From: an uncultured Clostridia bacterium | GTDB taxonomy: Bacteria; Bacillota; Clostridia; Christensenellales; Borkfalkiaceae | NCBI GenBank assembly: GCA_947087265.1 | Contig: CAMUBY010000002.1 | Span: 124,001-188,000 of the forward strand | Direction: 5' to 3' | DNA length: 64,000 nt | Part shown: piece after piece, positions 27,152 to 54,367 of the stretch | How positions within the stretch are numbered: the first letter of the stretch is position 1 | Layout: every line of letters begins with the position of its first letter | Made by a program: the position numbers and the translations under genes | Notes under the pieces: model-generated | What the model saw: the letters and a program-made list of their open reading frames with translations, nothing else | The model's database searches: none | What the model was told of the DNA's origin: nothing

Positions 27152-28243
27152 ATGCGGCTCGCCGAACATTCCTTACCAAAGAGTAAACCCGAAGAATACG
27201 GGGGTGGGGAAAATACGGTCGGGCTTTCATTTTGCCCGTTGGACGAGGGGGTGGAATGTGCGCAGCGGCGGTTCGGGGGAAAGACCTTATTTGTATCCGA
27301 CGCGCGTTCTATGCACTGTTTTGCGCCTTTTGCACGCAGTTTAAGGGCAATTTCCGTCGTGTTCGAGGCGGACGCTCTGCCGCTGTTCAGTATGCCCGAC
27401 GGCGTAGGTTCGGTGTTTGCGGCAGGCGGAGAAAACACCTTAAAAGCCGCGCGGTTTTTTGCGTACGTGCGGCGCATTCCCTGCGTACTCTTTCCGTCCG
27501 AGGCGGACCTGCGCGGCGTGTTGGAGGACAGGGCGGAAATTTTGCTGTGCGGTAAACAAACGGTGTTGCCGCTTTCGCAAGGAGAGTTGATTTTTGACGT
27601 TTCGCTTTTAACGCCGTCGCTTGCCGAAGCGTTTGCTTCGCTCCTGCTTGCGCGGCTCGCGCTTATCGAAGAACACGCGCTCCGTATTTTTCGCCGCCTT
27701 GAAAAACATCCGCTTTCCGAAAAAATGTTTCTGCTGACGCAATCGCCGCAAAGCGACGCGCGCGATTTGGTGTTGAGAAATTTCGCACTGCAAACGTTTC
27801 GTAAAAACGGCGCGCCGACAGGAGAGGGCGAAACGCTTGCGGCGTTACATAAGGCGGCGGGCGATGATTTTCCCGTCTGGCGCGCGTTTTGGGAGTTACT
27901 CGCGCTGTACACGGCGTTTTTTGAATGCGGAAAACCCCGTAAATATTTCGTGTCCGATTACGAAGCGCGTGCCCGAAAGGCGCACACGAAGTATTGCGAA
28001 GTACGTGTTCCGTCCGTTGAAGAGTACCGATTCCGTGCGGCAACACTGGAACAAATGCGCGGCGGTTTTTCCGCCGAGTTGCAATCCTTGCAATTACAAA
28101 GAGAACATTTTGAAGACGTATTCCGAGCGCTTTCGGGGGAAGAGGCGCCGCAGACGGATTTCAGACGCTTAAAAATACTGCCCGAACACGCGCCCGAAGG
28201 ACTTTCGGCAATCATACGCGATTTTGGGTTGATGGAATTTTAG
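27152..28243 (+). CDS. Unrecognised 363-residue protein
   Basis: A soluble protein, rich in Ala, Arg and Phe, with no signal peptide or membrane helices. VGSVFAAGGENTLKAARFFAYVRRIPCVLFPSEADLRGVLE (at about residues 90-130, given in two parts here: VGSVFAAGGENTLKAARFF, then YVRRIPCVLFPSEADLRGVL) has the look of the nucleotide-binding region of iron-alcohol or glycerol-1-phosphate dehydrogenases (GGG-type turn, helix, IP strand). The metal ligands of that family are not evident, so this is only a hint. AGAGGAAA precedes the ATG. It follows the metal exporter after 95 bases with no terminator between, so it may share its transcript. Confidence 0.7.
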   Translation: MRLAEHSLPKSKPEEYGGGENTVGLSFCPLDEGVECAQRRFGGKTLFVSDARSMHCFAPFARSLRAISVVFEADALPLFSMPDGVGSVFAAGGENTLKAARFFAYVRRIPCVLFPSEADLRGVLEDRAEILLCGKQTVLPLSQGELIFDVSLLTPSLAEAFASLLLARLALIEEHALRIFRRLEKHPLSEKMFLLTQSPQSDARDLVLRNFALQTFRKNGAPTGEGETLAALHKAAGDDFPVWRAFWELLALYTAFFECGKPRKYFVSDYEARARKAHTKYCEVRVPSVEEYRFRAATLEQMRGGFSAELQSLQLQREHFEDVFRALSGEEAPQTDFRRLKILPEHAPEGLSAIIRDFGLMEF

Positions 28244-28285: not shown

Positions 28286-28316
28286 GAATTTTTTTCAACG
28301 GATTTTGAAAAAAGCG

Positions 28317-28345
28317 TTTCAAAACAGGTTAAAAAGTGTTACAAT
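28317..28345 (+). promoter_or_regulatory. Promoter of the partner-switch sigma operon
   Basis: TTTCAA (28317-28322), 17 bp, TACAAT (28340-28345). A small hairpin GCCGC-ACT-GCGGC lies directly before the GGAGGAA ribosome binding site. Whether sigma-A or the operon's own sigma reads this promoter cannot be told. Confidence 0.5.
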
Positions 28346-28381: not shown

Positions 28382-28690
28382 ATGCAGGAAGTGAAACTCA
28401 TTCAGTCAGGACGGGAAACCGTGTTTGCGCTTTCAAAAGAAATCGATTCGGGAAACGCGGACGAATTTTATGAGGTAGTATCGGCAGCCTATGCGGCAAA
28501 TCCTTGTAACCTCGTGTTCGACTGCGCCGAGTTGGAATTTATCGATTCTACGACGCTCGGCACGTTCGTGAAAATTCTCAAAAAGGCAAAACAGGACGGA
28601 TTTACGCTCCGTATTATTAACATTCAGCCGCGGCTGAAAAAACTGTTCGTCATCTGCGCGCTCGATAAAATTATGGAGATAGAGCCATGA
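28382..28690 (+). CDS. STAS-domain anti-sigma factor antagonist (SpoIIAA/RsbV type)
   Basis: 102 residues, a single STAS domain. It carries LEFIDSTTLGTFVKIL, where Ser-56 is the residue that the partner anti-sigma kinase phosphorylates in SpoIIAA and RsbV. When unphosphorylated, such proteins pull the anti-sigma factor off its sigma factor. GGAGGAA precedes the ATG. It is the first of four overlapping genes and its end overlaps the next start (ATGA). Whether it is the sporulation SpoIIAA or a stress RsbV cannot be decided from sequence alone. Confidence 0.88.
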   Translation: MQEVKLIQSGRETVFALSKEIDSGNADEFYEVVSAAYAANPCNLVFDCAELEFIDSTTLGTFVKILKKAKQDGFTLRIINIQPRLKKLFVICALDKIMEIEP

Positions 28691-29052
28691 ACGAAATTAC
28701 GCTGGAATTTCCCCTGCACAGTGCGCTCAATACTACCGCACGGCTGACGACGGGCGGCGTCTGTTCGTTTGCGGGGCTGAGTTTCGATGATGCAGAAGAC
28801 TGCAAAGTCTGCGTGACCGAGAGTCTGATTTTACTTACACGCTGCGGATTTCAGCGCGCTTGTATTACCTTTTCGGGCGAAACGGGTTTGAAAGTTGTTA
28901 TCGAAGGGAAAAATCAAACGTCCGTTGCAAAGAAGTCGGCGGAGGACGAAATCTCTGCCGCGCTCATTGCCGCGCTTGCGGAAAACGTCGTCATGGAAAA
29001 AAAGAACGGCGAAATTGAAAAAATCGCGTTTGAATTCGGGCTGGCAAAATGA
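28687..29052 (+). CDS. Degenerate RsbW/SpoIIAB-like protein lacking ATP-binding residues
   Basis: 121 residues. The N-terminal part LTTGGVCSFAGLSFDDAEDC, then CVTESLILLTRCGF, follows the first helices of the GHKL anti-sigma kinases. In those kinases the N-box is E-x-x-x-N; here it is E-S-L-I-L, so the Mg-ATP-binding Asn is missing, and no glycine-rich G1 or G2 box follows. It is therefore probably a non-catalytic relative that may still bind the STAS or sigma protein. It overlaps both neighbours by 4 bases. The assignment rests on position and weak pattern. Confidence 0.65.
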   Translation: MNEITLEFPLHSALNTTARLTTGGVCSFAGLSFDDAEDCKVCVTESLILLTRCGFQRACITFSGETGLKVVIEGKNQTSVAKKSAEDEISAALIAALAENVVMEKKNGEIEKIAFEFGLAK

Positions 29053-29771
29053 ACGACGAAGAACTTTTCGCAAAATTCAGGGAAACGGGCGATTTGGAAA
29101 TCCGCAATCAGATTGTGGAAAAATATTTACATATCGCCGCCGTTCTCGCAAGAAAATTCGTCGGGCGCGGCGTGGAGTATGACGACTTGTATCAGATTGC
29201 GTCTCTTGCGCTCGTCAAGGGGGTTTCCCGCTTCGACGAGACGAAAGGAATACAGTTTTCCACATTTATCACGCCGACCATTACGGGCGAAATTAAAAAT
29301 TATTTCCGCGACCGTTCACGGCTCATTCACCTTCCGCGGAAGGTTTCGGAACTGCGCGTAGGGTTAAAAAAGCTGTCTGCGGAAATTTTTGCGGAAACGG
29401 GAAAAAAGCCGACGGCAAAGGAACTTGCGGAGAAATTAGGGGTTTCGGAAGAAGAAGTGTTGCGCTGTGCGGAAGCCGGGGGCGTGGTTTCGCTTGACCG
29501 TCCTGCGGGGAACGACGAGGGTATGAGTTATCACGACGTGCTTGCCACGGAGGACGTATTCGAGGAATTGGAGAACCGTGACGTGGTGAACAGTGCGCTC
29601 AATACGCTTTCGGACGCCGAACGCGCGCTCGTATCTTACCGTTTCGGGCAGGAACTTTCCCAAACGGAAACCGCAAGCCGCATGGGGGTTTCGCAGATGA
29701 ACGTATCGCGCATGGAGCGCAAAATTTTGCAAAAACTAAAAGAAACGCTGAATAAAAGCACGGTGGAATGA
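29049..29771 (+). CDS. RNA polymerase sigma factor of the SigB/SigF/SigG group
   Basis: 240 residues with sigma-70 regions 2 (VEYDDLYQIASLALVKGV, FSTFITPTITGEIKNYFRD), 3 (LIHLPRKVSEL, KKPTAKELAEKLGVSEEEVL) and 4 (SDAERALVSYRFGQELSQTE, RMGVSQMNVSRMERK). These are the hallmarks of the SigB/SigF/SigG family controlled by partner switching. It lies between a degenerate and an intact anti-sigma gene, all overlapping by 4 bases, in one operon with a STAS protein. It could be the forespore factor SigF or a general stress SigB; the unusual gene order leaves this open. Confidence 0.88.
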   Translation: MNDEELFAKFRETGDLEIRNQIVEKYLHIAAVLARKFVGRGVEYDDLYQIASLALVKGVSRFDETKGIQFSTFITPTITGEIKNYFRDRSRLIHLPRKVSELRVGLKKLSAEIFAETGKKPTAKELAEKLGVSEEEVLRCAEAGGVVSLDRPAGNDEGMSYHDVLATEDVFEELENRDVVNSALNTLSDAERALVSYRFGQELSQTETASRMGVSQMNVSRMERKILQKLKETLNKSTVE

Positions 29772-30136
29772 TGTTCTTTGAAGTTAACAGTATGATATCG
29801 CTTGACGAGGCGGTCGCAAAGATGTGCGCGGATTTTCGGAATGACGCGATTCCGGAAAGCGCGGTGTTCGATTGCAAACTGGTTGCAAGAGAACTGCTTT
29901 CCAATGCGCTCCGCCACGGCGGCGGTAAGGCAAAATTTACGGTGGAACGTGCGGGCGGTGAAATCCGTATCAGCGTGAAGAGTGCGCAGGACTTTGTTCC
30001 GCCCGCGGTGAGCGTGTGCTCGGAAGTTACCGCAGAGCGCGGCAGGGGGCTGTTTTTGGTGGATTCCGTGAGCGACAGACGGCTTTACAGCAAAGAGGAC
30101 GGCATTTGCGTTATCGTAAGAATTTTTGAACAATAA
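29768..30136 (+). CDS. GHKL-type anti-sigma kinase (RsbW/SpoIIAB-like)
   Basis: 122 residues with an intact N-box, CKLVARELLSNALRHGGG (Glu and Asn four apart), and a G2-like RGRGLFLVDSVSD. This is the ATP-binding core of anti-sigma serine kinases that hold a sigma factor and phosphorylate a STAS antagonist. The G1 box is weak. It comes after the sigma gene, the reverse of the usual spoIIAA-spoIIAB-sigF order, and overlaps it by 4 bases (ATGA). An alternative start is the internal ATG of MISLDEA. Confidence 0.8.
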   Translation: MMFFEVNSMISLDEAVAKMCADFRNDAIPESAVFDCKLVARELLSNALRHGGGKAKFTVERAGGEIRISVKSAQDFVPPAVSVCSEVTAERGRGLFLVDSVSDRRLYSKEDGICVIVRIFEQ

Positions 30137-53855: not shown

Positions 53856-53878
53856 GTTTGAATATAATATTCCGTGTG

Positions 53879-54367
53879 TTATAATCGTATCAATGTTACA
53901 GGCTCGTGAACGGCGGTGCAGATACAAACAGCGCAGGTTTCCAATTCCTTAAACGTAAGTTGCGCCGAAACGGGTACGCCTTTTTCATACAGAATGCCGT
54001 CGCGGTATTCGAGCGCCGAAAGCATTTTTGCGAGCGTGCCGCCCCGATACTTAATATAGGCTTCTTTCGCCGTCCACACCTTGAAAAAATCTTCATTTTG
54101 TTCGTCGGCGGAAAGTCTGCGCGTAATCGCTTGCGTGTTGCGGGGAGTGCGCCGCTCGATGTCCAGCCCGATTTCCTGATTTGCAAAAACGGCGGCGGTA
54201 AAGCTTCCGCTGTGCGAAAGATTAAACCGAAGCGGGCAGTCCGCTAAAAAGGGTTTGCCGTTTTGGGTTTCGGAAAACTGCGGCGCGGAAATTCCGTAAT
54301 GCGCTTGCAAAATTCTTTCAAGGAATGCGCGGCTGTCCGTCGGCTCGCAAGTATAAAAAAGTTTCAT
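53879..54367 (-). CDS. 4'-phosphopantetheinyl transferase (Sfp-like)
   Basis: Attaches the phosphopantetheine arm of CoA to carrier proteins. The 162-residue protein has the family motifs LRFNLSHSG, EIGLDIERR and FKVWTAKEAYIKYRGG with the Mg and CoA ligands. It is shorter than Sfp of B. subtilis (about 224), mostly at the N-terminus. The ATG at 54367 has no ribosome binding site and lies seven bases after a perfect -10 box, so the mRNA is probably leaderless. Confidence 0.87.
   Translation of the reverse strand: MKLFYTCEPTDSRAFLERILQAHYGISAPQFSETQNGKPFLADCPLRFNLSHSGSFTAAVFANQEIGLDIERRTPRNTQAITRRLSADEQNEDFFKVWTAKEAYIKYRGGTLAKMLSALEYRDGILYEKGVPVSAQLTFKELETCAVCICTAVHEPVTLIRL

Follow-up and report, generated by a model that had tools for sequence, protein, structure and literature searches.

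The four-gene operon studied here probably encodes a partner switch that divides the two jobs of RsbW between two GHKL proteins: a non-catalytic anti-sigma factor, called X below, and a separate kinase, called KIN. A PP2C phosphatase would reset the STAS protein of this switch, and the operon would be autoregulated. In the textbook design, both jobs are carried out by one bifunctional RsbW. The operon lies in a 64,000-nucleotide stretch of DNA from an uncultured Clostridia bacterium (contig CAMUBY010000002.1, positions 124,001 to 188,000), and by the window we mean this whole stretch. Our reading is based on gene order, conservation, predicted folds, individual residues, a promoter motif and the finding that KIN goes together with a degenerate X and a STAS protein; from these we infer the interactions of the proteins and their physiological role. 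X, encoded in the usual place of RsbW, would hold sigma inactive, and unphosphorylated STAS protein would take the place of sigma, so that X releases it. KIN would phosphorylate Ser56 of the STAS protein and thereby keep the switch off, and a PP2C phosphatase encoded elsewhere would dephosphorylate it, turning sigma on. Our confidence in the role of X is higher than our confidence in the kinase activity of the window's KIN.

The four open reading frames are on the forward strand, and each pair of neighbours shares exactly 4 bases; X, sigma and KIN are translationally coupled. The first gene (28382–28690) encodes a STAS anti-anti-sigma protein of 102 amino acids, which scored above the cut-offs of PF01740 (70.6 bits) and TIGR00377 (71.4 bits). 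Its predicted phosphorylation site, Ser56 in the motif DSTTLG (28547–28549, forward strand), is at the position equivalent to that in RsbV, and the serine was retained in all 129 STAS proteins of KIN-bearing loci. X (28687–29052, 121 amino acids) is an RsbW-like pseudokinase and a predicted non-catalytic anti-sigma factor. Directly after it lies the gene for a sigma-70 family factor of the SigB/F/G group (29049–29771, 240 amino acids), in which regions 2, 3 and 4 were all above the Pfam cut-offs; its score with the SigBFG model TIGR02980 was 216.7 bits (E 3e-64), slightly under the cut-off of 234, and that with the SigF family model was 154 bits, far below the cut-off of 321. KIN (29768–30136, 122 amino acids), a GHKL protein and the predicted STAS kinase, matched PF13581 (HATPase_c_2) with 33 bits against a cut-off of 27.4 bits. 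The open reading frame coordinates and Pfam matches thus uphold the gene order and the 4-base overlaps given in the earlier, sequence-only reading, but not its description of the last gene as intact, because the aspartate of the G1 box is missing. Automatic annotation, in which X is hypothetical and KIN would be named the anti-sigma factor, likely reverses the two roles. The source genome (1.43 Mb, 98% complete) also carries, elsewhere, a canonical spoIIAA-spoIIAB-sigF operon whose boxes are intact. Upstream of the STAS gene is a gene for a protein of 363 amino acids (27152–28243) that is conserved in the genus and has no match in Pfam or NCBIfam; the gap between the two is about 140 bases in the window and about 850 in most congeners.

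No significant match to X was found in Pfam. Its residues 2–48 matched the NCBIfam RsbW model weakly, with 27 bits, and the score with TIGR01924 was 26 bits against a cut-off of 155; the sigma gene is therefore not preceded by an RsbW that serves both jobs and carries all of the N, G1 and G2 boxes. Arg19 (28741–28743) and Glu45 (28819–28821) are kept, and four residues on from Glu45 the place of the N-box asparagine is taken by Leu49 (28831–28833, all on the forward strand); no G1- or G2-like box is present. Reading the residues thus bore out the description of X as a protein with leucine at the N-box position and no glycine boxes, and the asparagine was found in none of the 130 X proteins of KIN-bearing operons. 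An AlphaFold2 model of X (mean pLDDT 93.1) has the order beta-alpha-alpha-beta-beta-alpha-beta-beta. The best match among solved folds was B. subtilis RsbW (6m36; Z 16.9, rmsd 1.5 Å over 103 residues), followed by SpoIIAB and UsfX, so the unrelated fold that would have spoken against the GHKL assignment was not seen. With the GHKL fold kept and the ATP-binding residues missing, the earlier proposal that X does not bind ATP gains weight, and judging from its residues X very likely binds its partners without phosphorylating them.

In the solved complex of RsbV with RsbW, the RsbW residues contacting RsbV are Arg23, Asp42, Lys44/Ser48, Glu49 and Tyr118, and Glu49 faces the phosphorylated Ser56 of RsbV (PMC7340262). 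Nearly all of the X proteins from KIN-bearing operons have the equivalents of Arg23 (130/130), Asp42 (129/130), Lys44 (129/130) and Glu49 (130/130), and position 48 is Ser, Thr or Ala. In loci that have lost the STAS gene, Arg often replaces Lys44, and position 48 is in most cases Asp, Tyr or Glu; Arg23 (30/32), Asp42 (32/32) and Glu49 (32/32) are retained. Arg20 of SpoIIAB, the equivalent of RsbW Arg23, also contacts sigma-F, and a similar contact would explain the survival of the arginine in X proteins that have no STAS partner.

The arrangement is not peculiar to this genome, and a search for it in other Clostridia found the same four-gene order in many families of the class. It was present in 36 of the 36 congeners sampled (Candidatus Gallimonas, Christensenellales). 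When one genome per species was scanned, 80 further loci were obtained, of which 78 had the order STAS, X, sigma, KIN and the remaining two were at contig ends. Across 396 genomes of the order, 103 had a match to X at E below 0.001, and about 85 of these matches were strong; a broad X profile gave many more matches across the class.

When 218 loci with a sigma gene were classified by architecture, four states were distinguished: (a) STAS, intact RsbW and sigma, with no KIN; (b) STAS, degenerate X, sigma and KIN, which is the state of the window and occurs in many families; (c) STAS, degenerate X and sigma with no KIN nearby, seen in families f59 and f72 and genus g86; and (d) degenerate X and sigma alone, in families f4 and f23. 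KIN followed the sigma gene in none of the 29 operons with an intact RsbW, compared with 130 operons with a degenerate X. It was seen only where X had lost the kinase boxes and the STAS protein was kept, whereas X was retained with sigma in about 30 loci that lack both STAS and KIN. The sigma tree groups the states in a small number of large clades and offers only one or two independent pairs with support; by a sign test, no statistical significance can therefore be claimed for the association of KIN with a degenerate X.

If X has no kinase activity and the STAS protein is still regulated by phosphorylation, a kinase encoded elsewhere would be expected in state (c) and none in states (a) and (d). 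A phylum search with a Gallimonas KIN profile gave a small number of weak matches and one in an f59 genome that prompted a search for KIN outside the operon, for which we used a profile of diverse KIN proteins. It was found that all nine f59 genomes and all four f72 genomes encode a KIN away from the operon (13/13), as predicted; N, G1 and G2 motifs were readable in these distant copies where the open reading frame was printed, and where the neighbour was printed they mostly adjoined a gene for a TypA-like GTPase. None of the 20 genomes without the STAS gene gave a KIN match. In 13 genomes with intact RsbW there was no clear KIN, only weak matches, three of which were the intact RsbW itself. 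The exception was g86, in which no KIN was found in four genomes with degenerate X and STAS; this may be explained by their STAS protein, which reads DSAVIK where DSTGLG is expected. Several loci of other families of the order (L106, L110, L113, L117, L126 and L128) carry X and sigma alone or without KIN, followed by a gene for an HlyD-like protein, often by a YggS/YlmE-like gene and in some cases by a SepF-like gene. Such a neighbourhood is familiar from sigG loci.

From its occurrence KIN looks like the separated kinase half of RsbW. The window's KIN keeps the N box, with Glu42 and Asn46 in ELLSN (29891–29905), and the G2 box GRG in GRGL (30041–30049), but the DxGxG G1 box is absent and Ser72 (29981–29983, all forward strand) replaces the aspartate. 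The claim that this protein has both kinds of box thus holds for N and G2 only, and the loss extends through the family: the G1 aspartate is missing in 43 of 44 Gallimonas sequences and in all 17 from other genera of Borkfalkiaceae, so that 1 of 61 retains it, while outside the family it is present in 48 of 48 other Clostridia and 20 of 22 other Christensenellales (68/70). In Gallimonas and several sister genera the lost segment now reads approximately V-x-[S/G/C]-x-x-x-F-x-P-P. In the window this conserved stretch covers KIN residues 72–79 (29981–30004) and ends in FxPP, Pro79 being invariant in 64 sequences.

In GHKL proteins the G1 aspartate normally reads adenine. From the sequence, its loss in KIN may reflect a kinase that is dead, a change of nucleotide or a site in which the loss is compensated. 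The first of these leads to the strongest rival of a split switch, namely that X and KIN of Borkfalkiaceae are both dead, KIN being a second non-enzymatic binder or sensor and the STAS protein either unphosphorylated or served by an unrelated kinase. The missing aspartate in 60 of 61 KIN proteins of the family and the new FxPP segment in many of them point this way; we nevertheless regard it as unlikely, as the N-box asparagine and the G2 glycines are complete in 61 of 61, the phosphorylatable serine is unchanged in every STAS protein of KIN-bearing loci (129/129), and the boxes are complete in relatives outside the family. A Borkfalkiaceae KIN with GHKL kinase activity that does without the G1 aspartate and reads another nucleotide or signal through the FxPP segment is, in our estimate, also unlikely. 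The ATP/ADP state is thought to govern RsbW and SpoIIAB, and if such a KIN were active, the switch would be set by something else. The loss of this residue in one family poses a direct question on nucleotide use.

A different division of labour would be a heterodimer, in which X provides the docking face for sigma and STAS and KIN the active site. RsbW dimerises via alpha1 and beta1 (PMC7340262), RsbW1 of M. smegmatis pairs with RsbW3 in a heterodimer (PMC7693655), and the operon couples translation of both X and KIN to that of one sigma gene. However, the KIN gene of families f59 and f72 lies far from that of X, and RsbW2, the M. smegmatis kinase, did not co-purify with partners of the RsbW1 type in the assay presented (PMC7693655). 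We therefore consider pairing of this kind improbable.

The split switch in turn assigns sigma to X, whereas in a rival model KIN is the anti-sigma factor and X, as the sequence-only reading had suggested, a sink for STAS or sigma that adds a layer to a complete switch. The ATPase boxes are indeed better preserved in KIN, and annotation would name it the anti-sigma factor. The KIN model (AlphaFold2, pLDDT 94.4) matched UsfX (Z 14.5), RsbW (14.3) and SpoIIAB (13.9), the three being tied within 1. KIN proteins have Glu49 (131/131) and the N-box asparagine (130/131), but the equivalent of RsbW Arg23 is mostly missing (present in 4/44 and 16/87), and Phe or Tyr replaces Glu41. KIN never occurs without a degenerate X, whereas X stays with sigma in the roughly 30 loci that have neither KIN nor STAS. 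A KIN anti-sigma factor is thus hardly credible, and the extra-sink model was rejected on position, residues and co-occurrence: X occupies the place of RsbW with the contact residues kept, and it is KIN that is the additional gene. Most simply, X is the anti-sigma factor, given its place, its RsbV-contact residues and its retention with sigma in the absence of STAS and KIN. That X is a decaying, functionless pseudogene, as the loss of all three nucleotide boxes might suggest, has practically no likelihood and was rejected on sequence conservation, the frame being open in nearly all of well over 100 genomes, with 14 residues invariant across 70 sequences, Arg19 and Glu45 invariant in 25 diverse members, and a confidently predicted fold.

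Upstream of the operon we found a SigB/F-type promoter, CGTTTCAA-N12-AGTGTTACA (28315–28343, forward strand), 38 bases 5' of the STAS start. The motif TGTTTGAA-N12-GGTGGTATA was present 5' of STAS in 76 of 80 loci, compared with 2 of 80 after shuffling, the 80 being related sequences and not independent cases. The operon motif resembles the consensus of both SigB and mycobacterial SigF; in mycobacteria, GTTT-N17-GGGTAA 5' of rsbW3 is a SigF-type promoter (PMC7693655). Two strict matches were found in the window where 0.02 would be expected. Since the pattern is rare and stands directly 5' of STAS, the operon is likely autoregulated by its own sigma factor. The second match in the window (53856–53883) is not directly followed by any clear target gene on its strand. 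A search for a regulon by this motif gave only three strict sites genome-wide; apart from that of the operon, neither has a convincing target, and across the genus the motif mostly marks the operon itself.

Two PP2C phosphatases are encoded in the source genome, one of 779 amino acids and a PAS-PP2C protein of 371 amino acids. The latter (C1, L326:1266–2381), a candidate for the phosphatase that switches sigma on, has a cysteine-rich stretch, CGDGMKCGYC, in its PAS region. PP2C proteins occur in nearly all genomes, for which reason their presence was rejected as a discriminator; it is by this presence alone that a PP2C would be linked to the operon.

The closest known counterpart is the mycobacterial SigF switch. 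In M. smegmatis, RsbW1 is an anti-SigF factor without kinase activity; RsfB is phosphorylated by RsbW2, a protein that has N, G1 and G2 motifs and shows no binding to SigF (PMC7693655). Judged by sequence and fold, that switch and the window share a box-less anti-sigma protein of the RsbW fold beside the sigma gene; they also have in common a separate GHKL protein with kinase motifs, a STAS antagonist with a conserved serine and a SigF-type promoter. An X profile matched UsfX, the M. tuberculosis counterpart of RsbW1, with 52.7 bits and no boxes in the aligned stretch; structures of UsfX with SigF (8jzt) and with RsfB (8ih8) exist. A tree of X and UsfX was built on few alignment columns, and UsfX lies on a long branch in it. 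The mycobacterial switch differs in belonging to another phylum and in its gene arrangement, rsbW2 lying with rsfB away from rsbW1-sigF, whereas all four genes of the window are in one operon; in addition, KIN of the window's family is without the G1 aspartate. The RsbV-RsbW-SigB system of B. subtilis and C. difficile has the same order of STAS, RsbW-like protein and SigB/F/G-type sigma, the RsbV-contacting residues of its RsbW are kept in X and Ser56 is kept in the window's STAS protein, but it has one bifunctional RsbW, whereas the window has an X without ATP boxes and a second GHKL gene after sigma. The GHKL fold, the STAS partner and a related sigma are also shared with SpoIIAA-SpoIIAB-SigF, and equivalents of SpoIIAB Arg20 and Glu46 are present in X; SpoIIAB is, unlike X, a kinase, and the source genome has its canonical spoIIA operon separately.

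In the literature searched, experimental proof of a comparable split was found only for mycobacteria, and no description of the four-gene arrangement or of a split in Clostridia was found in the open-access literature, most subscription papers being outside this scope. A split of RsbW is thus known in principle; the present case differs in its phylum, in having all genes in one operon and in how widely it occurs. Here, a class-wide set of genomes is available in which the anti-sigma and kinase jobs apparently reside in separate genes and in which relatives have lost STAS, KIN or both, a natural experiment for assigning RsbW surfaces to sigma, STAS or ATP. X also constitutes a family of bacterial pseudokinases whose role is clear and open to testing.

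One further observation concerns sigG of the source genome, which is in two pieces on the minus strand (C7:50720–51004 and C7:41001–41507), about 9.2 kb apart, within the region C7:40500–51700 (L377). Between them lie genes for a serine-recombinase-like protein of 492 amino acids, a sigma-like protein and others, resembling a skin-like intervening element; no case of an interrupted sigG was found in the literature searched. Since sigma-G acts in the forespore, an excision there would be inherited, unlike that of skin. Among 26 Gallimonas genomes, sigG was broken at about the same place in 4 and whole in 22, and genome G019 has a whole sigG together with an extra C-terminal piece.
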